Source: a virus. Taken from it: a stretch of 24,736 bases of DNA. The translations under genes were made by a program, and so were the position numbers. The notes under the pieces are model-generated. The model had not been told where the DNA came from, did no database searches, and was given only the letters and a program-made list of their open reading frames with translations. Of this stretch, positions 6,041-23,806 are shown piece by piece (position 1 is the first letter of the stretch; each line of letters starts with the position of its first letter). The stretch spans positions 1 to 24,736 of the IMG/VR virus record IMGVR_UViG_3300032092_000236; one strand, 5' to 3'.

Positions 6041-6313
6041 ATGAATGACATGATCAACAACATCTCTCCAGTAAGTATATGGAAAGACGGAACAACACAA
6101 TCAGCCACACAATTACTTTTGCGCATAGTGGCAGATGACCTGTACAGCCAGGCCATATTTTACTATGAGCTACTGACCGCCAATGATGATGTAGTCATCA
6201 ACGGCAATTTGACCCTTAACGGTACTGCGTATACCACCTGGAATACCAGTGCCAATGCCACGCCTGGTGCATTTACCTGGGCAACAGACCAATTGAATCT
6301 AACCCTAACATAA
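6041..6313 (+). CDS. Small probable tail or fibre-associated protein
   Basis: 90 residues, starting MNDMINNISP. It is polar, acidic and aromatic, and its second half (ING NLTLNGTAYTTWNTS) has the short beta-strand, Asn/Thr-rich style of fibre proteins. There is no signal peptide or membrane helix. It lies 27 bases after the 43-residue ORF and its stop is one base before the start of the tailspike gene, so it is part of the same late transcription unit. I do not recognise a named family. A tail accessory protein is the most likely role, from position and composition only. Confidence 0.65.
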   Translation: MNDMINNISPVSIWKDGTTQSATQLLLRIVADDLYSQAIFYYELLTANDDVVINGNLTLNGTAYTTWNTSANATPGAFTWATDQLNLTLT

Positions 6314-7776: not shown

Positions 7777-8184
7777 ATGGAAAACACCAAAACCAAACTA
7801 ACGGTAGCAGAGCTGTGGGCACTCCATGGCGAATTAACTGGGACAGAGCTTCAGCAAGCCCTGTTGTCTCAGAAACTTTCTCTAACCACCAAGTTCTATT
7901 TGACCAAACTGGCCAAAGCCTGCGGTGAGCACAAGACCAATTTTGAGAGTGTGCGCAATGAAAAGATCAAAGAGCTGGGCGTTGAAGATGAGACAGGTGC
8001 CATCAGTGTACCTGAGATGGTTGATGGCAAGGTCAATGAGAACTTTCTTACATTACGTGATGCAGTGAATGAACTGCTGAAAGTAGAAGAGGAGATTGAG
8101 CACCCTGTGTTCAACATTGAGGATTTTGCTGCAGTAGAAACAGAAGGTTTCTATCCTGTATTTTTCAAACTTTTAGGACTGTAA
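7777..8184 (+). CDS. Hypothetical 135-residue protein, last gene of the structural block
   Basis: The product is acidic and largely helical (segments TVAELWALHGELTGTELQQA and NFLTLRDAVNELLKVEEEIE), without a signal peptide or membrane helix. The start lies 5 bases after the stop of the small basic ORF. The pattern of two helical segments around a beta-like middle (ETGAISVPEMVDGKVN) recalls short phage proteins of the DUF1617 type, but I cannot confirm that. It ends just before a hairpin terminator that closes the plus-strand block. Most likely a minor structural or accessory protein. Confidence 0.65.
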   Translation: MENTKTKLTVAELWALHGELTGTELQQALLSQKLSLTTKFYLTKLAKACGEHKTNFESVRNEKIKELGVEDETGAISVPEMVDGKVNENFLTLRDAVNELLKVEEEIEHPVFNIEDFAAVETEGFYPVFFKLLGL

Positions 8185-8190
8185 AAACAA

Positions 8191-8211
8191 AGGGAGGCAT
8201 TAGACCTCCCT
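8191..8211. terminator. Bidirectional terminator between convergent units
   Basis: Arms AGGGAGG (8191-8197) and CCTCCCT (8205-8211) form a perfect 7-bp stem with a 7-base loop. Read leftward the hairpin is followed by TTGTTTTT, a good T tract for the minus-strand genes; read rightward the tail (GTTGCTTTA) is weaker. It lies between the plus stop at 8184 and the minus stop at 8234. Confidence 0.85.
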
Positions 8212-8233
8212 GTTGCTTTACAAAATGTATTGG

Positions 8234-8857
8234 TCAGGGGCCAAAGTAATGGAACCCTGAATCAACATCGTCTACATTACCAGACTTAATGTTGTAGATC
8301 AGCGACGCCATGGTGGACGTCGTGCTTTTGCTTTTGTCTTCTTTCTTGACAAAGTACTTGCTGGTCTGCATGTAGGTGAAATCGTTAGCGTCCTCATAGA
8401 CTTTGACGTACATCTCTGTAGCAGTCAGTACATCCTCCCACGTATATTCTGGATACTCTTTGAAGAACCATTTGAAGCGGTCAAACAACTCTTTGGGATT
8501 GGTCCTGAACGTAACGCTTGACCCTATCTTTTTACCCTTTGGAAACATCTCGTTGTATTTCACAATCTGTTCTTCCCAGTCAGAGAAGGGAACCTCTGTT
8601 TTCTTTGCGCGCTTCATCTTGGCTAAGATCTGCTCAGCTTCACGAATGACGTGCAATCCTTTGTCAGTGATTTTGTATACGGGGGTCAGACCCCCGGATT
8701 TATCCTCAACCAGGTGACCCGTGAGTGCCAGTCGATACTGCTCACTCTTGTAGTTCACGTAGCTGGCGTACATGTAGTTTTGATGTGTGGTGTGCAGTAT
8801 GAACAACCCGTTGGGGGTGATCTTCTGTTGCACCAGGTAATCATATAGTTCTTTCAT
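8234..8857 (-). CDS. Hypothetical protein with winged-helix-like N-terminus
   Basis: 207 residues. The N-terminal 70 residues (MKELYDYLVQQKITPNGLF, then LALTGHLVEDKSGGLTPVYKIT and DKG) read like a compact winged helix: helices followed by a beta-hairpin wing ending in the typical ITDKG. A linker of lysines follows (about 80-90). The second part (about 92-190) has conserved-looking aromatics (KELFDRFKWFFKEYPEYTWEDV, MQTSKYFVKK). A DNA-binding or late regulatory role is possible, but I do not recognise the family. It is the last gene before the bidirectional terminator and is separated from the reductase by another hairpin. Start chosen at the only good in-frame ATG in front of the winged-helix segment. 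Confidence 0.7.
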   Translation of the reverse strand: MKELYDYLVQQKITPNGLFILHTTHQNYMYASYVNYKSEQYRLALTGHLVEDKSGGLTPVYKITDKGLHVIREAEQILAKMKRAKKTEVPFSDWEEQIVKYNEMFPKGKKIGSSVTFRTNPKELFDRFKWFFKEYPEYTWEDVLTATEMYVKVYEDANDFTYMQTSKYFVKKEDKSKSTTSTMASLIYNIKSGNVDDVDSGFHYFGP

Positions 8858-8877
8858 AACGTGTTGGTTTAAAGAAT

Positions 8878-8899
8878 GGGGCTGCCGTTATACAGCCCC
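8878..8899 (-). terminator. Terminator after the ribonucleotide reductase gene
   Basis: GGGGCTG (8878-8884) and CAGCCCC (8893-8899) form a 7-bp G/C-rich stem with an 8-base loop. Read leftward it is followed by ATTCTTTAAA. It sits 8 bases after the reductase stop and 20 bases before the start of the 207-residue gene, so it may uncouple the two or act in the leader of the second. Confidence 0.75.
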
Positions 8900-8907
8900 T
8901 TTCTAAT

Positions 8908-10827
8908 TTAGCGTACTGGACAAGCTCCGCCTTCGCAGTCAGCGATGTCCATATCGTCCAGGTTGATAGTGCTATCAAAACTAGAGATGGTCTTGACACC
9001 TGCTGATAGTTCAGCAAACTTCTCTTCTGTGATCTCTTCCAGGGGAGCTTGGTCAAAACCATGCTCGTTGTGTAACAGGAAGGATACACTCTTGACATTG
9101 ATGTAGTTTTCAGCCAACCACTGACGGATGGCTTCCAACTCTTCTTTGCGGTAGTAAATGGTGACAGACACCGCGTTGTCAGACCACTCCGTCTGCAGAC
9201 GCTTAATCACCTCCAGCTGGTCCAATGCAGTCATGTCATTGGCCAGTAATGTTCCTTCAGGAAACTTACATGGGAAAGATACCACTACAGTGGAGTGATC
9301 TTCTGTCCCGTCAAAGTTGCGCTGGTACTCCACGTGATACCCGTGACTCTTGCATACACCCACGATTGGGCTGTCAGAAGCCATGCGGATACGGCGGATG
9401 TAGTACTGCGAGTAACCTGGATGAGCACCTGATGTGACACCTGCCAACAGACTCAATGTACCAGAGGGCTTGACCGTGGTCAGCTTGATGGAAGGATTAA
9501 ATCCTTTGGCCTGGCTGTACTCATCGTCATACGCTCTCAGGTAGTTGTAACAATCTGACAACCAGCTTCTTTGTTCTTCAGTGGCTTGTAAATACCCGGT
9601 CACCCCAATACCCATGCGCATGTTCTTGTGCACGATGTCTTCAGTTTCCTGAACGGCACACTTGATTGCCAGGGAATGTTTGTTGATGCGGTACAGCAAT
9701 CTTGCTACCTCATACAACTCATTCTTGCTGTCAATGTTGGGCAGGTAGATCTCTGCCAGACAGCAGGTTTCATAGTTGGCCAGGGATTGTTCAGCACATG
9801 GATTGAATCCCATGACGTCATGGTCAGGATACTGCGTCTCCCCGGTGCGACCCATGCGACGAGCTGCCTCCAGGTTGATAAGACCATATGGTTCACCATT
9901 GCCTTTGTATCCTTCCCAGAACTCTTCTGGCAACTTGGTTACATCGTCACAGATCACGGAGTTGTTACTCATCGCTCTCCAGTTGGGGATGCCACCCAGG
10001 TCCCAACGCTTGGCGCGCAGGAATTCAAAATCGTCATAGTCACCCAGGGCGATCTGCGCTGAGCGTCTAACATTACCAGCTACGACAATGCGGCCAATAA
10101 TGTTCATCATATCCAGGCAGTCAATAGGGCGCAGGCGTTTGCCAGCACGCGTGTTCAACAGGTCATTGATGGCGGTCATGCCCCAGACCAGATCCTCCGG
10201 TCCAGAAGCTACCCCGCCAAAACCTTTGATGGGTGAACCCTTGGAGCGGATCAGATGCGTGGCAAAGCTGAAGCCTTTACCAGTGACAAATGAAGCTTCC
10301 AATACACGGTGAAGCAATTCTACCCAGCCTTCTCTTGAGTCTGGCACAATGAAGTCTGCGTCGTTTACATCCTTGCGCTCAATCTTTACCTTCTTTAAAA
10401 CCTTGGGGATCTGATAGACATGCTCGCGCTGGATGTTGAATCCAACGCCTGAGCCCAGCATCAACATCTCAAAGGTCCAGGTAAAAGGTCTGATCGGTGC
10501 GTCCACGACAACGAACGCACAGTTTTGTAATGAAGGCAGACCTAAGCGATCTACCGTTTTGGTACCTAACTGCCACAGGAAACGTCCTGCCACAGTTCCT
10601 TTCAGGTTCACCATCATGTGGCGGACCGCAGCTTCTTCAGCAGGAGTAAACCCTACATTCAGCTGTTCTTTGCAGGCCTTGACTACACGGTCAACGGTGT
10701 CAGGCCATTCTTCTGTTTTTCCATTCTTTGTTGGGCGCGAATAGGTGCGCTTGTAGGTTACATAACCTACTGGACCCCAGGGAATTAAAGACGACAATTC
10801 CCTAGGGCTGATGGGTGTTTCTGCCAT
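8908..10827 (-). CDS. nrdJ: Class II (adenosylcobalamin-dependent) ribonucleotide reductase
   Basis: 639 residues. It reduces ribonucleotides to deoxyribonucleotides using a thiyl radical generated from coenzyme B12. Visible key residues are C103 (LQNCAF), the radical site in FNPCAEQ (C344, E346), the partner C355 in NYETCC, and a C-terminal pair C631/C636 in CEGGACPV that re-reduces the active site. Spacing and tail match the monomeric Lactobacillus-type enzyme (C119, C408, E410, C419, C731, C736 in that enzyme), though this protein is about 100 residues shorter. The substrate loop TVKPSGTLSLLAGVTSGAHP (about 451-470) is intact. No intein or intron is seen. It is transcribed alone, away from the replication block, from a divergent region shared with the lysis cassette. 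It lets the phage make dNTPs with or without oxygen, provided the host supplies cobalamin. Confidence 0.95.
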   Translation of the reverse strand: MAETPISPRELSSLIPWGPVGYVTYKRTYSRPTKNGKTEEWPDTVDRVVKACKEQLNVGFTPAEEAAVRHMMVNLKGTVAGRFLWQLGTKTVDRLGLPSLQNCAFVVVDAPIRPFTWTFEMLMLGSGVGFNIQREHVYQIPKVLKKVKIERKDVNDADFIVPDSREGWVELLHRVLEASFVTGKGFSFATHLIRSKGSPIKGFGGVASGPEDLVWGMTAINDLLNTRAGKRLRPIDCLDMMNIIGRIVVAGNVRRSAQIALGDYDDFEFLRAKRWDLGGIPNWRAMSNNSVICDDVTKLPEEFWEGYKGNGEPYGLINLEAARRMGRTGETQYPDHDVMGFNPCAEQSLANYETCCLAEIYLPNIDSKNELYEVARLLYRINKHSLAIKCAVQETEDIVHKNMRMGIGVTGYLQATEEQRSWLSDCYNYLRAYDDEYSQAKGFNPSIKLTTVKPSGTLSLLAGVTSGAHPGYSQYYIRRIRMASDSPIVGVCKSHGYHVEYQRNFDGTEDHSTVVVSFPCKFPEGTLLANDMTALDQLEVIKRLQTEWSDNAVSVTIYYRKEELEAIRQWLAENYINVKSVSFLLHNEHGFDQAPLEEITEEKFAELSAGVKTISSFDSTINLDDMDIADCEGGACPVR

Positions 10828-14207: not shown

Positions 14208-15017
14208 TTAAAATCTAGCTTCAGCCGCCAGCTCTTCAGCTTTTGGGATCAACGTTAATGGCTCACCTGTTGGAAGGCTGGCCGTCTTTGGCTCCAGGTA
14301 TAAGAGGTTGTCAAACACCTGGTGCACTTTACCCTGGTCATTCATCCAGTCAGCGGGGTGGCCTTCTTTCAGTGCCAGGGTAATGTGGTTGTACAACGCC
14401 CAGGCAGACTCCGGGTCAACTTTGTAGTCAAAACTTGGCTTAACAAGTTCACTTTTGACAATACCCATCTGCATACCATTAAGCACATTCTCTTCAAAAA
14501 AGAGCGTACCCAGGATGTGATGGCGGTCGTTTTTGGTCAGGTTGCGGTCACGCATGTTGTCCTTGTGACGGACTAGCGTACGCCAGTATTCGTCAGACTG
14601 GCGGATGTACTCCGCAATGTGACCTTCAGCCAACACATCAGCAGTGCCGGTGTGCACCCTGCGGTACGCACCAAACTTGCTGTTGTTGATCATCATGCCG
14701 TTCATACACACTTTCACCATGCCGCCCAGGTTGAACCTGAAGGCATACTGCTTGTTGTATGAGTTCATGAAGTTGGCCGCCAGTTCAATATCCATATCAG
14801 CTTTGTAGTTGATGCGGAAAGAACCTGTGGCAATGTCACCGTTGTTGGAGCAACGATAGTCTTCACCAGTAATGACAAACCCAGCGTTGGTGATCTCGCT
14901 TCTCACACGGTTGATGACCTGTGTGTGAGAGATGGGGGTATAAGATTTGGTGCGCTCAGGTAGGGTGGCGCCTATAATGGTGGCATACGCGGGCATGCCC
15001 TTGATTGTTCTTTTCAT
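14208..15017 (-). CDS. DUF932-like phage/plasmid protein
   Basis: 269 residues. Features that recall the DUF932 (TIGR03299 phage/plasmid-like) family are the central strand set SFRINYKADMDI, then AFRFNLGGMVKVCMNGMM, followed by long helices, and the late ESAWALYNHITLALKEGHP segment (family members often carry W.LYNAVTEALK). The family is widespread on phages and plasmids and its function is not established. No catalytic motif, signal peptide or membrane helix is visible. Its stop is followed by the TGTAACC repeat cluster, and its start is one base before the stop of the polymerase gene, so it is co-transcribed with replication genes. Confidence 0.65.
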   Translation of the reverse strand: MKRTIKGMPAYATIIGATLPERTKSYTPISHTQVINRVRSEITNAGFVITGEDYRCSNNGDIATGSFRINYKADMDIELAANFMNSYNKQYAFRFNLGGMVKVCMNGMMINNSKFGAYRRVHTGTADVLAEGHIAEYIRQSDEYWRTLVRHKDNMRDRNLTKNDRHHILGTLFFEENVLNGMQMGIVKSELVKPSFDYKVDPESAWALYNHITLALKEGHPADWMNDQGKVHQVFDNLLYLEPKTASLPTGEPLTLIPKAEELAAEARF

Positions 15018-15018
15018 G

Positions 15019-16998
15019 TTAGAACAGACTTAATTGTTGGTTTACTAAATGTGATGGTAATACAGGTGCTTTCTTCTCAATTTTGGCAATCTCATCATAG
15101 ATTTTGTCCAGGTAGTACTTTTCATCCACGTCATACTCCTCCCAGGTTTTCTCTTGGAATTTGTTGAGTATGGTTTGGTGGACGTTGCCACTCTCCAGTT
15201 GCATGGTTCTTCCATCGGGGTTGGCTTTAAGCAGCTTACTTCCCCGTTTAGAATTGTAGTAGCGGACCAGTTTCTTGAGGGTCTCCTCCTTGTACTGTCC
15301 GTCCTCTACATGCTGTCTGATGAAATACCAGTCGCCTTTCAGCTTGGCACCTGCGCAGTAGTCATGAATGTCCCGGTTGTTTTGTACAAACTCCCTGGGA
15401 TCTGTGCCATGTATAAAGTATGCATACCACGCCTTGGGTATGATAAGCATGCTTTTGTTCTTGTGCAGGGCCAGTTCGTCATATTCAAAGCGACCCTTGC
15501 ACTTGGTCTTGCCGTCCTTATACACGGCTATGTAGTTGTTGACGTCTCCAATGATCATCTTGCTGTACTCCACCATCTCCAGTTGCAGGGAGGTCATCTC
15601 CTCCCATTCCTTGCAGACCTGGTAGAACAGCTCTTCATGTTCCTCGTCGATCAGAAACTCCAGACCATCGGTGTTCTGCATCAGCGGTTGTGCACCCGGT
15701 ATGCGGGTGGCCAGCATCTCATAAAGCATGCTGAGCAACAACTGACCGTTGATGGTGATCTTGAACGTCAGCTCCGGGTCATACAGGAACGAGTGACGCT
15801 CCTTGCTGAGTCCATACGTGGCGTTCAGAATGATCTTGAACAGGTAGTTCAACGGGTTCTTCTTGTCATACTTCTTACGTTCCTCAAACATCCATTCATA
15901 CAGCTCACAGAATTCTTCCTTGGGCAAATGCGCTGGACTCCACTTGTTTCTAATGGCCAGGTTAGGGTAGAAGCTGGTCACATCCGCAGATATAATCTTC
16001 TTGCCTTGCTTGGCTTCATAGATTCCTGAAGCGATGCAGCCATGCAGACCACCCAATGCGTAATCCGTAGGCACCTTGCGGTACATCATACGATAGCTGG
16101 GTCCTTTTTTCTTCTGCTCAATGTCCTCCACATCAGCGGTGTCAACGACCAGAGCTTTAAACCAGTTGTGCACGGCTATAAACTCTGGTGTCTCAAACTT
16201 GATGTACGGGAGCAGGATGTCACGGACCACCACCTGATCACGCGGGGTGCGCATGTTGCGGATCACCTTCTTGTCCATCCCTAGTTTCTCACTCAGGAAG
16301 TGCAGGAAGATCTCCTTAGATATCTTTGGCTCAGAGGCACTGTACAAACGCACGTCGTACTTACGGCTTAGCTCCGCCCGCAGGTTAATCTGCGAGACCA
16401 TCACCTTTTCTCCCTTAGGATTGGTGAGGTTGAAGATGGCCTTGGTGCTTTGCACGTCGTTGATACAGTAGCTCACCACCATGTCAGTTGTCCCACGATC
16501 GCGGACAATTTCATAGTGCGGGTGAGGCATCTCTTCCACGTTGTGCCAGTCCATAGAGAACTGGATCCACTTCAGAGAACTGCTTTTGGCGCGGTTGTCC
16601 CAGTGGTTGAGCTTAAAGATATCCACACAAGGTATGGACAGCTTGAATTCTGGATAGTCAAGGAACTCGTTGTTGCGTGATTTGTTGATCACGGATTGTG
16701 CATACTGATAGATGACACTGGTGTAAACGTCAGCGTCCACATCCTTGCGGCAGAACATCTCCTGGTTGGCAAGAATATACTCAGTAATCTGGGCGTCAAA
16801 CCCTAAGTTGTTGAAACCTAGATGCCAGTCACCTGCTGCGCGTGATTCCATGAGGAACTCCGTAAAGGAGCGCATGTCGTTGTGATAGGGGTCTACCACA
16901 AAGACTTTACGCTCCTCACTGTTCATGTCCTCAAAGACGGCAACAAAGCAATTGACAATGGTTTCATAGTCCATTATCCAGAACTTGCGCTGTCTCAT
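15019..16998 (-). CDS. Family B DNA polymerase with 3'-5' exonuclease
   Basis: 659 residues, compact for the family. The proofreading exonuclease is intact by motif: Exo I DYET (D10, E12), Exo II GFNNLGFDAQ (D68) and Exo III SYCINDVQST (Y177, D181). The polymerase has motif A SADVTSFYPN (D339), motif B KIILNATYG (K388, N392, Y395, G396) and motif C QNTDG (D444), where the usual first Asp of DTD is Asn. A KxKG-like motif is at KCKGRF (about 499-504). The protein ends in QQLSLF, matching the bacterial beta-clamp-binding consensus QL[S/D]LF. No terminal-protein gene is visible nearby, so protein priming cannot be judged. It acts as the phage replicase with the primase and DnaB-type helicase of the same block. 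It follows the 135-residue gene by 2 bases. Confidence 0.92.
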   Translation of the reverse strand: MRQRKFWIMDYETIVNCFVAVFEDMNSEERKVFVVDPYHNDMRSFTEFLMESRAAGDWHLGFNNLGFDAQITEYILANQEMFCRKDVDADVYTSVIYQYAQSVINKSRNNEFLDYPEFKLSIPCVDIFKLNHWDNRAKSSSLKWIQFSMDWHNVEEMPHPHYEIVRDRGTTDMVVSYCINDVQSTKAIFNLTNPKGEKVMVSQINLRAELSRKYDVRLYSASEPKISKEIFLHFLSEKLGMDKKVIRNMRTPRDQVVVRDILLPYIKFETPEFIAVHNWFKALVVDTADVEDIEQKKKGPSYRMMYRKVPTDYALGGLHGCIASGIYEAKQGKKIISADVTSFYPNLAIRNKWSPAHLPKEEFCELYEWMFEERKKYDKKNPLNYLFKIILNATYGLSKERHSFLYDPELTFKITINGQLLLSMLYEMLATRIPGAQPLMQNTDGLEFLIDEEHEELFYQVCKEWEEMTSLQLEMVEYSKMIIGDVNNYIAVYKDGKTKCKGRFEYDELALHKNKSMLIIPKAWYAYFIHGTDPREFVQNNRDIHDYCAGAKLKGDWYFIRQHVEDGQYKEETLKKLVRYYNSKRGSKLLKANPDGRTMQLESGNVHQTILNKFQEKTWEEYDVDEKYYLDKIYDEIAKIEKKAPVLPSHLVNQQLSLF

Positions 16999-17413: not shown

Positions 17414-17959
17414 TTAGGGATTATTGGTTATTGATTCTTGATATACTTCGCGTTCTCTGTCATAGCCTTCACAGAGTTCGCCCACCTGGCGGATGAGGTC
17501 TTCATCCACATCCAGGATCTTGGCGTACTGTGAAAAGTATTTCTCAGGGAACAGAAAGCTTTCTATATATACCCACTCTGGCGTGTGTACACCATAATAG
17601 TCAGTAAGTATTTTCTTTGACTCCACGCTCATGCGGGAGTATTTACCTTCAAGGAAAGCATCTAGGTCTTCTCTGAAAGGGTTCATGTCAAACACATAAG
17701 CAACGAGGTCATCCTCAACCGGAACAACCTCTGTAAAATTCTTATGCGTGATGAGTACTTCGCGCTCAAAATCGCGCCATTCGTCAGTGTCTTCTTTCTC
17801 ATACAAACACACCAGCTTGCGGTCGCCCACATCGCACACGCCCGGCCACGCCAGATAAGTCTGGTATGGCTTGGGGTGCTTTGATTTGTGGAATCCTAAC
17901 AAGGGGTATAAGAATGTGTAAGACTTTTGAAAGTATTTTCTATAGATCTCTGAAATCAT
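17414..17959 (-). CDS. Hypothetical 181-residue early protein
   Basis: Starts MISEIYRKYFQKSYTFLYPL. It has many aromatic residues and strongly acidic stretches (YEKEDTDEWRDFEREV, DVDEDLIRQVGELCEGYDRE). The FHKSKHPKPYQTYLAW segment and central beta strands suggest a folded alpha/beta domain. No nucleotide-binding, metal or membrane motif is seen. Its start overlaps the stop of the exonuclease gene (ATGA), which implies coupled translation and possibly a joint role in recombination. I do not recognise the family. Confidence 0.7.
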   Translation of the reverse strand: MISEIYRKYFQKSYTFLYPLLGFHKSKHPKPYQTYLAWPGVCDVGDRKLVCLYEKEDTDEWRDFEREVLITHKNFTEVVPVEDDLVAYVFDMNPFREDLDAFLEGKYSRMSVESKKILTDYYGVHTPEWVYIESFLFPEKYFSQYAKILDVDEDLIRQVGELCEGYDREREVYQESITNNP

Positions 17960-19014
17960 AGTGTTAACTCTTCATGGAGCAGGTACTGGAAGGGTAAGCT
18001 GAAGTCACGCTTTCTGAAATGGTAAGCTGCTTCGTTCAACTTCTCCCTGGTATCACTGATCCACTGGTTCAATTTTTCATCGCTCACCTTGATAGGTGCG
18101 ATCTGCATGTAAGGGTCAATGACGATAAACCTGAACTCGATCTTCCATCCTGCATAATACTCTGGTCTGGAGAGGTACTGGTCTTCTACCAGCATCGCAT
18201 ACATCGCTGCCTGAATCCAGTAGCGGAAGTACTCTATGCTTTCAGAAAAACTGTTGAGGTCCTTGCCGGTCTTCTTCACGTCGTTGACGCGGATGACTTT
18301 GTTCTGCGGATCAAAGACTAGGTTGTCTATGAAACCACGCAAACCAAAAGGCAACGCCTCAGGAAAGCTAATGATCTCTTTCTCATTCTCTTTGGTAATA
18401 CCATTGAAGCTGTCACCAAAGTAACCCATGCGGTCCATGACCGTAGGGTTGGAAGTGATCTTGTCCACCACGGCTTTACAGAAGTCATAGGTGTCCTGAC
18501 TTACAACGATCTTGCCTTCCATGGTAGTGAGATATCTCCAGTATTCTTCATGACGGGAAGTGATCATTTTCTCCAGGCGCTGTGCATCTGTCTTCAAAGA
18601 CTGGTACAGGTTAGCGTCACGCAGGATGTCCAGGATGGCATCGCCAAACTCAGCCAATTCTGTGCGGGTATCACCGTGCGCCTTTAGGTCTTTATGGTGC
18701 ATCAACAATGTTTCCAACACCTTGCGGGGGTTGTCGCTGGGCGGTTCCTGTACAGAGAGCACGAACTGGTTGTCAAAATGAGTGGGGTGCAACAGCAGAC
18801 AGTGAATGAGGCTGCCCTCGATCATGTTCTGGTCCATTGCATCATCTCGTTGCTTCAGCACATAATGCTGGTAAAACAGCGCAGGGCTGTATAATAGTCT
18901 GTTCAAACCTGAGTAAGACATCAGGAATGGTTTGCTGAAGAATTCTTCTTCTTTCTGAATACGCTCACTGAGGGCAGGTGGTGCCACGAACGATTTGGTA
19001 ATTGATGATGCCAT
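17956..19014 (-). CDS. PD-(D/E)XK superfamily exonuclease (RecE/RecB-nuclease-like)
   Basis: 352 residues. The order of motifs is that of RecE/RecB-type nucleases: an early helix with SYSGLNRLLYSPALFY (33-48), GSLIHCLLLHP with H71 (68-77), GLRGFIDNLV with D230 (224-233), VNDVKKT with D245 and K247 (243-249), and a Q..Y signature in YWIQAAMYAML (Q268, Y272). It probably degrades one strand of linear duplex DNA to make single-stranded tails for annealing. In this block the likely partner is the Sak4-like ATPase at 21338-22141, with the probable SSB protein. It overlaps the next gene by ATGA and starts 2 bases after the stop of the GIY-YIG-like gene. It could instead act in host DNA breakdown. 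Confidence 0.8.
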   Translation of the reverse strand: MASSITKSFVAPPALSERIQKEEEFFSKPFLMSYSGLNRLLYSPALFYQHYVLKQRDDAMDQNMIEGSLIHCLLLHPTHFDNQFVLSVQEPPSDNPRKVLETLLMHHKDLKAHGDTRTELAEFGDAILDILRDANLYQSLKTDAQRLEKMITSRHEEYWRYLTTMEGKIVVSQDTYDFCKAVVDKITSNPTVMDRMGYFGDSFNGITKENEKEIISFPEALPFGLRGFIDNLVFDPQNKVIRVNDVKKTGKDLNSFSESIEYFRYWIQAAMYAMLVEDQYLSRPEYYAGWKIEFRFIVIDPYMQIAPIKVSDEKLNQWISDTREKLNEAAYHFRKRDFSLPFQYLLHEELTL

Positions 19015-19015
19015 G

Positions 19016-19468
19016 TTAAAAACAGTTTTCCATATCCCGGTTGTAATAGCGGCCCAGGATGTTGCCGTTGTAGCTGTCGTTTTTCAAGACGTCAAGCTTG
19101 ACTTGCCAGCTGAGTTCACAATACGTCAGGTATTTCTTGGAGCAACACAGCTCCAGGATTTCACGCTTGAAGTGTTTGTTACCCTGCTTACTGATGTCTG
19201 CGCTCAAGTCTTTAGAGGACCCGTGGTACAGCAACCAGTCTGATTCCTTGATCTCAACGCGAAACTTCTTGCGGGTTCCGGTGAGGCGCTTCTCAGTAGC
19301 TGATATCTTCTTCTTGCGGGAGTGATACAGGCTTTTCTTGCCGATGTAAAACCTACCTGTCTTCAGGTTAGTGATCTTATAGACAAAGCCGACAATGGCT
19401 TCATGGTTGGGAAGTTGGTGTACCTTGGTGATCTCTTCACCAGTGGGTACATAGGTCCAGTTGTTCAT
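19016..19468 (-). CDS. GIY-YIG-like endonuclease (Seg-like)
   Basis: 150 residues. FVYKITN (28-34) and RFYIGKK (39-45) give the two-strand signature of GIY-YIG nucleases. The following KKISATEKR basic segment, SDWLLYHGSS (76-85) and the helix with E118 (KKYLTYCELSWQ) fit the Arg and catalytic Glu parts of the fold as seen in T4 Seg-type proteins. It lies between primase and exonuclease and has its own control region with a -7 box and three TTCTACA/GTCTACA half-sites, which suits a free-standing mobile homing endonuclease, but a DNA repair or recombination nuclease is equally possible. No intron or target site is evident next to it. Confidence 0.65.
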   Translation of the reverse strand: MNNWTYVPTGEEITKVHQLPNHEAIVGFVYKITNLKTGRFYIGKKSLYHSRKKKISATEKRLTGTRKKFRVEIKESDWLLYHGSSKDLSADISKQGNKHFKREILELCCSKKYLTYCELSWQVKLDVLKNDSYNGNILGRYYNRDMENCF

Positions 19469-19498: not shown

Positions 19499-19525
19499 TT
19501 CTACAAAAAGTCTACAGGTCTACAA
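19499..19525 (-). promoter_or_regulatory. Cluster of three TTGTAGA-type half-sites
   Basis: On the plus strand TTCTACAA (19499-19506), GTCTACA (19510-19516) and GTCTACAA (19518-19525) stand as direct repeats. On the minus strand they read toward the -7 box at 19485-19492, beginning 6 bases upstream of it. The first copy in transcription order overlaps the TAG stop of the primase gene. The 11-base string TTGTAGACCTG is shared exactly with the reductase control region (10888-10898). Confidence 0.5.
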
Positions 19526-20524
19526 CATTATTTCTTCTGCTTGGTAGGCGTTGATGGCACGATCAAGCACAGGCACCAGGTACTGCAGGGCTTTTTGTTT
19601 GCCATGCACCTTGATGATGTCGCTGATGTCTTTCTCCTGTGGCAGGTAGACATAAGGGATACCGTAGGTCTCCTTGTATTTTTGCATGCTGGCGATACCA
19701 GCCTGGTCAGAATCAAAGAGGGTGACGATTGCCTTGTAGTCTGCTTTGAATGCTTTGATCCTTTCTTCAGGGATCATCGTGTTCTCAGAGTCAGGGCAGA
19801 TCACATCTACTTTGAGTAAAGGTAAACTCTGCAAGGCCATGCAATCTTTCAGACCGCTGGCGATTACCAGGAAGCGGTTGCCCTGCAGCTGGTCTTCACC
19901 TTGCAGGTAATCGCAGATCTTGATGAACTTGCGGGAGCGGTTGAGTGGCTGGTAGATCTTATAGAGAACACCTTCACTGGTATAGTACCCGTATATATTC
20001 TTATTGGTCACCACGAATTCCTGAACCTGGATGCCATCTTCCATGGTCTTACCCATGACGTAGCGCTCAATAGGGCGAACGTTGTAACGCTCCAGCAACT
20101 GGCTGGAAATGTTGTACGGGCTCCAGAATTCAGCATCAGCTTTATTCCAGCCCCTGGTCTTCACGTCCACAACCTTCCAGGCACTGTGCTCTACGATTTG
20201 TGTATCGCAGCGCTTGCCCGTCTTGAGGTAATCCGCATAGTCCTGCATAATGCGGCTTGCGGTTTCTGCAAAGGGCAGGTTCCAGACATGCATCATCATG
20301 TCAATGGCACTGCCGCCTTTACCCGTGCTGAAGCACTTGTAGCGGTAGGCTTCTGCATCCCTGTTGTAGTATATGAACATGGACGGAGTTTTGTCAGCAG
20401 GATTGAACATGCTGTGGATACGCACGCGCTGTCCTGATAGTGGCTGCAGTCCCAGGTAGGTCTCAAAGATCCAATGGCTGGGTACGGCATGCACATCATT
20501 TATAAAACTTCTGCTTGAAAACAT
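19520..20524 (-). CDS. DNA primase (DnaG-like, TOPRIM domain) with degenerate zinc ribbon
   Basis: 334 residues. It makes RNA primers for the phage polymerase. The N-terminal part follows the CHC2 zinc-ribbon outline (IHSMFNPADKTPSMFIYY, 36-53, then YKCFSTGKGGSAIDMM, 62-77), but of the expected Cys/His ligands only C64 is clear, so zinc is probably not bound. The TOPRIM core is at about 217-285: FLVIASGLKDCMAL (218-231), where the usual EG..D has become SG.KD, then TLFDSDQAG (268-276) with the acidic pair. The protein is short compared with DnaG (about 580) and lacks a helicase-binding C-terminal domain. The gene begins 9 bases after the end of the T tract of a terminator hairpin, so its expression may depend on read-through. 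Confidence 0.8.
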   Translation of the reverse strand: MFSSRSFINDVHAVPSHWIFETYLGLQPLSGQRVRIHSMFNPADKTPSMFIYYNRDAEAYRYKCFSTGKGGSAIDMMMHVWNLPFAETASRIMQDYADYLKTGKRCDTQIVEHSAWKVVDVKTRGWNKADAEFWSPYNISSQLLERYNVRPIERYVMGKTMEDGIQVQEFVVTNKNIYGYYTSEGVLYKIYQPLNRSRKFIKICDYLQGEDQLQGNRFLVIASGLKDCMALQSLPLLKVDVICPDSENTMIPEERIKAFKADYKAIVTLFDSDQAGIASMQKYKETYGIPYVYLPQEKDISDIIKVHGKQKALQYLVPVLDRAINAYQAEEIML

Positions 20525-21337: not shown

Positions 21338-22141
21338 TTATTCTTTAATGAAAACTTTACTCCAGTCAACTGATATGTTGCCGTCTTTGTCAATTTTGGA
21401 AATCTCAATTTCCTGGTTACGCAAGTGCTCAGGGCGTGCACCGCAGTTTACTTCATCTGTGGTCTTGAAACTCAAGATGGTCTTGTCACCTTTGCGGTAC
21501 AGATAACCAATGGCATCTGAGTGTGCAGCGGTGATGCTCTTGATACGACCGGTGAGTTGCAAGTCAAGGGCATTGAACTCTGTTCCGTTCTTCTCCAGGA
21601 GCGTGTCCTTCACGTGACCCAGCAGGATCACATGTGGAGCCAAGGTCTTGATGTAGGCAATGATCTTTTCAAACGCCTGGCGAAGGTATGGGTAACCTGC
21701 ACCGTTGGGCATGTTGGTGATCGAGCCATACTTCTGCTTACCATCGGTAAACCAGTTCTTACCCATCGGGGTCTTGCTGTACAGCTCCTCTGCATACGGG
21801 ATGCACATTTCTTCTAATGCGGTGATGGTGTCTACTGCAATGTACTTGTACGGTTTACCCTGCCCCAGGATCAGTGTACCAATCTTCACAATGTCTGTGA
21901 TGCTGTGCGCCTTAAGCTTAATTGCATCCACATAGTCAGAACCGTTCTCCAGGTCTAAGATTAAACAATCATCCAGGTTGGCCAACAGGGTAGTCTTACC
22001 CACCTTGGGCTTACTGAAGATGACCATATTCTTAGGGTTTTGTGACACGGCTTTGATTTTCTTGGTTGGTAACACGAATTCTGGTTGCGGGACCGCTGGT
22101 GCAATCGCTTCTTTTTTCTCTGCTACTTTTTCTGCTGCCAT
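21338..22141 (-). CDS. Sak4-like RecA-fold ATPase (recombination)
   Basis: 267 residues. After a charged Ala/Lys/Glu-rich N-terminus (1-30), the RecA-type core shows Walker A FSKPKVGKTTL (42-52), a following acidic strand LILDLENGSDYVDA (60-73), Walker B YIAVDTIT (100-107), and a sensor-like strand VILLGHVKDT (171-180). This is the layout of the single-domain phage nucleotide-binding proteins of the Sak4 group (AAA_24), which assist single-strand annealing or strand exchange. It overlaps the 220-residue gene by 19 bases and precedes the probable SSB gene by 12 bases. With the PD-(D/E)XK exonuclease it would form a recombination module. A packaging or DNA-repair ATPase is a less likely alternative. 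Confidence 0.8.
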   Translation of the reverse strand: MAAEKVAEKKEAIAPAVPQPEFVLPTKKIKAVSQNPKNMVIFSKPKVGKTTLLANLDDCLILDLENGSDYVDAIKLKAHSITDIVKIGTLILGQGKPYKYIAVDTITALEEMCIPYAEELYSKTPMGKNWFTDGKQKYGSITNMPNGAGYPYLRQAFEKIIAYIKTLAPHVILLGHVKDTLLEKNGTEFNALDLQLTGRIKSITAAHSDAIGYLYRKGDKTILSFKTTDEVNCGARPEHLRNQEIEISKIDKDGNISVDWSKVFIKE

Positions 22142-22795: not shown

Positions 22796-23806
22796 TTACT
22801 TTCTTGGTTGTTGCATAGGAGCTTTGGCTTCTACGATGGTCATTAAAGCATACTCTGCTTTGTACCACTGAATGCCTGTATCTCCAAAACGGTTCTTGAG
22901 TACGTGCATGGCCAGCAGGTACTTGTCATCCGGCTGGATGATGTACTTGAGCGGACCGTACAAACTCAGGTTGTACTTGGCAGGACGGTTGTACGCGATC
23001 ATGACGTCTGCGCATTGCAGCAGGTAGTCAGACCCGTATACGTCTGCTTCAGTGGGGTAGTTGCTAAGTGAACCAGGCTTCTGACGGTCAGGGTCATCGA
23101 TCTCACGGTTCAGCTGTGTCAGTACAAGAAATGTGATGGGCAGCGCATTCTTCATTTCTGTCATCATGGTTGCCAGGTTTTGTAGTGTCATCTGGCGATT
23201 GGTCTCTGTACCACTCTGCTTGACCAGCAGGGTATGGTCCAGGGTGACCACGAATGGCTTCTTTACTTCCTTGTAAAAATCAATGAGTGCTTTACGCATC
23301 TCAATAACGGTCAACGGGGTGTCAATCACATAGTCCTGGCGGTGTCCTTGTGTAGCCACATAGTCCACCAGCTTCTTCATGTCACCCGCACTAAGCGGTG
23401 GCATGTCTGCATCGCCTGAGCTTTGCAAGTAACGGATGTTCATGCGATTGGCACTGGACAGCTCTCTGAGGGCAAGGTTACGGCCCAGCATTTCAAACTG
23501 AAAGTGCAGGACGGCAAAGTCCTGGTCCTTGTTGATGCGCTGTAGCTCGCGGGTCAGGGAGGCTGCGATCAGTGTCTTACCTACGCCGGGTCTAGCTGCT
23601 AGTACATACAACGATTGCCACTCAATTCCGTTAAGCCCTATGCTGTTGAAACCTTCCCATTGTGTTCTGAGTGATTTAACCTCACCCTTGGCACGGGAAG
23701 AAATATAGTCAAGGCCCTGTTGCATAATGTCAGTGTACCTCTTCCAGGGCGAACGAGAGGTGACAGATTTAGTAGAGCCAGTTGTGCTGGCCGGTGCTTC
23801 AAACAT
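22796..23806 (-). CDS. Replicative DNA helicase, DnaB-type ATPase domain
   Basis: 336 residues. The RecA-like motor has Walker A AARPGVGKT (70-78), the catalytic Glu in FQFEM (E105), Walker B VVTLDHTLL (D190), QLNREID (231-237), and the KNRFGDTG segment (304-311) that in DnaB carries the arginine finger. These are the classical DnaB signatures. The N-terminal collar domain of cellular DnaB is missing; only about 60 residues precede the motor, partly a Ser/Thr-rich stretch. Without that domain, primase contact must differ from the bacterial case. It is the first gene of the helicase-to-primase run and starts downstream of a TGTAGAGC inverted repeat. Confidence 0.88.
   Translation of the reverse strand: MFEAPASTTGSTKSVTSRSPWKRYTDIMQQGLDYISSRAKGEVKSLRTQWEGFNSIGLNGIEWQSLYVLAARPGVGKTLIAASLTRELQRINKDQDFAVLHFQFEMLGRNLALRELSSANRMNIRYLQSSGDADMPPLSAGDMKKLVDYVATQGHRQDYVIDTPLTVIEMRKALIDFYKEVKKPFVVTLDHTLLVKQSGTETNRQMTLQNLATMMTEMKNALPITFLVLTQLNREIDDPDRQKPGSLSNYPTEADVYGSDYLLQCADVMIAYNRPAKYNLSLYGPLKYIIQPDDKYLLAMHVLKNRFGDTGIQWYKAEYALMTIVEAKAPMQQPRK

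Follow-up and report, generated by a model that had tools for sequence, protein, structure and literature searches.

The window (the whole stretch of viral DNA analyzed, 24,736 nt) contains a replication module encoded on the reverse strand. This module comprises a DnaB-like replicative helicase (nt. 22796–23806; phrog_19, E = 8.7e-30), a Sak4-like single-strand annealing ATPase (nt. 21338–22141; phrog_124, E = 3e-32), a DnaG-type primase with a CHC2 zinc finger (nt. 19520–20524; phrog_12622, E = 9.6e-21; PF01807), a PD-(D/E)XK exonuclease (nt. 17956–19014; phrog_412, E = 2.8e-23; PF12705), and a family B DNA polymerase (PolB; nt. 15019–16998), with a ribonucleotide reductase and a dNMP kinase encoded on the same strand. 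A gene for a GIY-YIG SegE-type homing endonuclease (nt. 19016–19468, reverse strand) lies inside the module. The next gene after polB, here and in most loci examined, encodes a 269-a.a. DUF932 protein (nt. 14208–15017, reverse strand; PF06067, E = 2.5e-8).

The window PolB (659 a.a.) matches phrog_1252 over residues 2–643 (E = 1.1e-136). Its 3′-5′ exonuclease motifs are D10xE12, N63...D68, and Y177xxND181, and its polymerase motifs are D339VTSFYP (A), K388xxxNxTYG (B), and NTD444G (C), with the residues of both sets invariant or nearly so in an alignment of 27 relatives. In motif C, NTD stands in place of the canonical DTD, which fits the divergence of the crAss-like group noted in one study (PMC7544198). 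The predicted fold led to family B polymerases in Foldseek (best E = 5e-14) with modest global TM-scores (query-normalised 0.34–0.49), so the family B assignment made in an earlier reading of the letters (hereafter, the sequence-only reading) is borne out by profile, motifs, and fold alike. The Pfam family B profile misses the window PolB, and the best-scoring relative reaches only E = 0.0018; given how barely this profile matches, we regard the window PolB as a divergent member of the family.

The C-terminal motif and its conservation

The PolB ORF ends in APVLPSHLVNQQLSLF, with VNQQLSLF as its last residues, and the stop codon occupies nt. 15019–15021, so that nt. 15019–15036 hold a terminal pentapeptide and the stop. 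This pentapeptide (QLSLF, residues 655–659, nt. 15022–15036, reverse strand) is a putative binding motif for the bacterial beta clamp (DnaN), and the exact match to the DnaN-binding consensus QL[S/D]LF pointed out in the sequence-only reading is present in the translated ORF. In this consensus, positions 1, 4, and 5 matter most and position 3 is free, and affinity is apparently unaffected by whether the motif takes its pentameric or hexameric form (PMC11139829, PMC12309361). A variable linker (KKAPVLPSHLVNQ, residues 642–654, nt. 15037–15075, reverse strand) separates QLSLF from the last long helix (residues 626–640), and residues 654–659, which follow the last helices, are predicted to be disordered (pLDDT < 50) in a model underlain by a shallow alignment. 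Based on amino-acid composition, the chance of a C-terminal QL[S/D]LF is ~1.3e-6 and that of a C-terminal Q[L/I]xLF is ~1.8e-5. Among the 231 predicted genes of the window and two complete related genomes, the strict motif ends only PolB, while the loose motif matches one non-PolB gene.

Relatives of the window PolB were collected in a pair of IMG/VR scans that overlap (70 and 80 loci), with two further loci from genome assemblies, giving 76 distinct full-length proteins (46–100% identical). All 76 end in a form of the clamp motif, either a QxxLF-type pentapeptide or a QxxLxL-type hexapeptide; loss of the tail in close relatives, which the sequence-only reading had named as counting against its proposal, was thus not seen. 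The most common pentapeptide was QLSLF (33 relatives), followed by QLELF (8), QLTLF (6), QLTFF (3), and QTTLF, QISLF, and QFQLF (2 each), with QLRLF, QILLF, QLNLF, and QTSLFQ among the rarer tails. The hexapeptides were QLKLEL (10), QLTLDL (3), QLTLEL, QTKLEL, and QLELSL, and these occur at two separate places in the tree (QLKLEL/QLTLDL and QTKLEL/QLELSL). This natural variation agrees with the measured tolerance of DnaN.

The linker before the motif drifts in both sequence and length, with proteins ranging from 631 to 668 a.a., while the ending is kept. At the codon level, Leu4 is encoded by all six leucine codons across the relatives, Ser3 by both AGY and TCN, Phe5 by TTT and TTC, and Gln1 by CAA and CAG. 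Given that the motif is kept through such synonymous codon turnover, the C-terminal motif is, by this comparison of sequences, under selection at the protein level rather than merely preserved by recent common descent.

Clamp searches and distribution of the motif

The sequence-only reading had reported no phage clamp in the window and called for a search of the full genome. In profile searches, the DnaN family (PF02767) was absent from the window and from 15 long or partial relatives. Eleven relatives of 109–126 kb likewise gave no match at E ≤ 1 to phrog_947, PF02916 (gp45-type), or PF00705 (PCNA), nor to the clamp loader profiles PF13177 and PF06144, with three phages known to carry clamps (W01–W03) scoring as expected as positive controls. 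Two of these long relatives have at their ends direct repeats that are exact copies (237 bp in G001 and 69 bp in G007), which mark them as complete and make a missing fragment an unlikely reason for the absence of a clamp there. A custom HMM search of all ORFs in G001 and G007, run with the --max option, returned nothing below E = 1 (positive control, 8e-162). The reported absence thus stands for the window and extends to the 11 long relatives, though it is possible that a clamp is encoded that is too divergent for the profiles used.

The DUF932 protein was considered as a candidate for the phage's own clamp and rejected, as its AF2 model (35 orthologues, pLDDT 84.6) was not clamp-like; in a PDB comparison, no structure matched this model at E ≤ 0.001, and the 50 best hits included no clamp. 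Many DUF932 orthologues carry an acidic disordered tail ending in LPF, HPF, or TPF (e.g., EEIEELLPF), which resembles the C-terminal tip of SSB (DDDIPF). By this resemblance, the DUF932 protein may bind or anneal single-stranded DNA.

In a quick tree of 61 PolBs, the window clade (33 entries) carries the motif throughout, with the three entries flagged as lacking it by regular expression ending in QTKLEL, QFQLF, and QLTFF. The motif was also noted in 10 of 11 entries of a separate clade of gut-type crAss-like (Suoliviridae) PolBs, as QLNLF, QLSLF, QLSLW, QTSLF, QLTLF, QLELF, and QLTIF, and further Suoliviridae (cr60_1, cr109_1, cr4_1, cr130_1, cr131_1, and cr124_1) end in QMSLW, QLSLW, QLELF, or QLTIF. 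Suoliviridae PolBs such as those of cr1_1, cr4_1, and cr131_1 (QLNLF/QLSLW/QLELF at or near the C-terminus) belong to the same family as the window PolB but are only ~25–27% identical to it, and their polB neighbor is a segregation/condensation-like protein, as opposed to the DUF932 protein. The placement of the motif differs as well: directly after the last helix in the gut clade, which has no linker, and after the linker in the window clade. As for the window relatives, the PF02767 clamp was not found in the crAss-like (Suoliviridae) members tested.

Between the two motif-bearing clades lie mostly proteobacterial phages and the Flavobacterium phage FpV4, without the motif, a pattern that could possibly reflect two gains, or one gain and one loss. 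Most other phages with a phrog_1252 polymerase also lack the motif. Four phages, from Septimatrevirus, Seuratvirus, Lokivirus, and Titanvirus, have PolBs of the same superfamily and a bacterial DnaN-like ring, but differ from the window phage in that the ring is their own, encoded by a phrog_947 gene adjoining polB; their PolBs form another clade, without a glutamine-containing motif. Three of these (L100, L101, and L097) end in or near SASLF, LSFF, or PDLF, without glutamine, and two PolBs of the clade have SASLF and LSFF as their actual ends; such endings are perhaps a motif variant tuned to the phage's own ring.

Across 14 records of phages lacking the motif, we found no convincing phrog_947 clamp, with one marginal match (E = 0.0024) in the Cellulophaga phage phi14:2. 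Given that these PolBs lack both the motif and a convincing clamp, a clamp appears not to be obligatory in the phrog_1252 family, and other solutions to processivity must exist. In the PolB of phi14:2 (L090), the motif is missing from the C-terminus, but QLNIFDL occurs ~60 residues ahead of it and is possibly a relocated clamp motif. The suggestion in the sequence-only reading that use of the host clamp explains a compact PolB did not hold up, since sizes are similar whatever the motif status (631–668 a.a. with the motif, 611–775 a.a. without it, and 661–711 a.a. in phages with their own clamp).

Proposed use of the host clamp

The same docking chemistry is known from cellular and mobile-element proteins. 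PolC, the Firmicutes replicative polymerase, has QLSLF as its clamp motif in 98% of sequences (PMC3919608) and binds DnaN with it from the extreme C-terminus, as in B. subtilis (PMC12309361, PMC3919608). PolC, however, is a C-family enzyme working with the cell's own clamp, whereas the window PolB, from family B and a phage, would use the clamp of another organism. The family B fold is shared by Pol II of E. coli, which works with bacterial DnaN (PMC5731819, PMC11139829) and ends in QLGLF (residues 779–783), mutation of which shortens its lifetime on the clamp (PMC5731819). Pol II is nonetheless a chromosomal repair and translesion enzyme of 783 a.a., and the window PolB profile hardly detects its sequence (E = 0.25). 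That mobile elements evolve such tails to exploit the host clamp is seen in insertion-sequence transposases (IS1634 and others), which attach to the beta clamp by a C-terminal QLxLF (PMC4549789); like PolB they are proteins of mobile elements, but the process affected is transposition and not replicative processivity.

Among phages, the gp43 of T4/RB69 is a family B polymerase tethered to the gp45 ring through its C-terminal tail, and T4 encodes both its own ring and a loader. The window-type phages, in contrast, appear to encode neither.

Since the tail is conserved in all 76 relatives and a phage clamp goes undetected, the host clamp is probably borrowed. We consider it quite likely, from these sequence comparisons, that PolB binds the host DnaN ring via its tail for processivity, with no clamp or loader of its own. 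In this scheme, the family B polymerase, helicase, and primase that copy the phage DNA would be the phage's own, no sliding clamp or loader having been detected. The host clamp loader would place the DnaN ring on DNA, the flexible tail would seat its QLSLF in the hydrophobic pocket where that ring takes up peptides, and the docked ring would tether the phage polymerase, presumably giving processive synthesis and making it a competitor of the host Pol III for the ring. As bacteria in general have DnaN with such a pocket, this reading is independent of the host phylum.

Cross-binding has been shown between clamp and PCNA-type motifs (PMC4549789), so the identity of the ring cannot be read from the motif by itself. 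That the tail instead binds a clamp of the phage's own, too divergent to recognize, as T4/RB69 polymerases bind gp45, strikes us as unlikely: related PolBs of Septimatrevirus, Seuratvirus, Lokivirus, and Titanvirus do adjoin a DnaN-like clamp, and most genes in the complete relatives are without annotation here, but neither the clamp-family profiles in the 11 long relatives nor the sensitive ORF searches of the two complete genomes gave a match, no clamp loader was found, and the syntenic DUF932 fold has no clamp match. We also give little credence to host takeover as the main role of the tail, in which docking on the host DnaN would serve to shut out or displace Pol III or repair polymerases and would change the processivity of PolB itself only slightly. 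QLSLF closely resembles the tightest binders known, polymerases share one groove competitively (PMC5731819), and several phrog_1252 PolBs manage without both motif and clamp; however, the tail sits on a polymerase whose catalytic motifs are intact and for which tethering is an obvious benefit, and the strict motif ends no other gene in the genomes checked.

Short linear motifs are promiscuous, and the tail could be kept for another partner (e.g., the phage helicase, the DUF932 protein, or SSB), its likeness to a clamp motif being only that. We judge this very improbable, given that the variation of the tail obeys the code of the DnaN pocket, down to the switch to QLxLxL hexapeptides, and that a second clade has the motif as well, in a geometry of its own. 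A chance match without function would have in its favor that the motif is only five residues long and that loose matches occur elsewhere (QLNLTLT in the window ORF at nt. 6041–6313, and QVTLL in one G001 gene), yet it was rejected as vanishingly improbable on the conservation of the motif in 76/76 relatives, with synonymous codon turnover within it and a drifting linker alongside.

Extending the host-clamp reading beyond the window, we lean towards the view that many crAss-like phages, in both the human gut Suoliviridae and the environmental lineage of the window, adopted the host DnaN ring via a PolB docking peptide, through at least two acquisitions or a loss in between. In the literature searched, which did not cover the viral-replicase surveys of Kazlauskas and Venclovas (2011, 2016), we found no paper that notes this motif for family B polymerases of phages or describes phage polymerases using the host clamp. 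The available parts of two studies covering PolB diversity, polymerase swapping, and crAss-like phages (PMC7544198, PMC11348598) do not discuss the motif. The docking chemistry is already known from PolC, Pol II, and transposases; what appears to be new is that the replicase of a crAss-like phage with no detected clamp would, as the sequences suggest, make conserved use of it.

If correct, a viral replicase of family B would here be working on the clamp of a bacterial cell, not on a viral one. The crAss-like phages are among the most abundant human gut viruses, and broad adoption of the DnaN ring would fill part of a replication mechanism called unknown in a 2023 review (PMC10136315). Docking to DnaN could also bear on the frequent swaps between PolA and PolB in crAss-like phages, reported in PMC11348598, for which the docking peptide offers a testable variable. 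With the conserved peptide as a concrete, mutable handle, such phages would be expected to depend on the DnaN and clamp loader of their host and to compete with its polymerases.

Phage affiliation and host

In the complete relative G001, terminase and portal are of crAss-like type: the large terminase subunit (TerL) is 25–27% identical to those of crAss-like phages, and the portal protein matches phrog_6547 (E = 2.7e-84). The capsid protein of this relative matches that annotated in the crAss-like phage cr116_1 over only 36%, and its major head protein (L071, nt. 7978–9636) is closest to that of the Leptolyngbya phage Lbo-JY46 (26.7%), a cyanophage of 125 kb. Given this capsid affinity, we refer to the window phage as a crAss-like relative and not as a placed member of the Crassvirales.

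A Bacteroidota host is plausible. The window ribonucleotide reductase is 61–62% identical to those of a Maribacter phage and an unclassified phage, and no enrichment of Shine-Dalgarno sequences was found upstream of genes in the window (0/20), G001 (4/68), or G007 (2/58), which fits Bacteroidota but other phyla too. Two relatives (L108 and L109) lie on MAG contigs binned as Pseudomonadales (114.7 kb) and Sphingomonadaceae; these bins were rejected as host assignments, as they are probably mis-binned phage, with the 114.7 kb contig approximating the length of a related phage genome.

Two minor observations concern other proteins of these phages. The 90-a.a. product of the window ORF at nt. 6041–6313 (forward strand) has an ending, QLNLTLT, close to the hexapeptide clamp motif, while the corresponding 90-a.a. 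ORF of G001 (nt. 72984–73256) ends in TKLNLTLS, so the glutamine of the window ORF is not conserved. The Lbo-JY46 phage, which the G001 major head protein links to the crAss-like group of the window, carries an annotated 450-a.a. "putative DNA polymerase".
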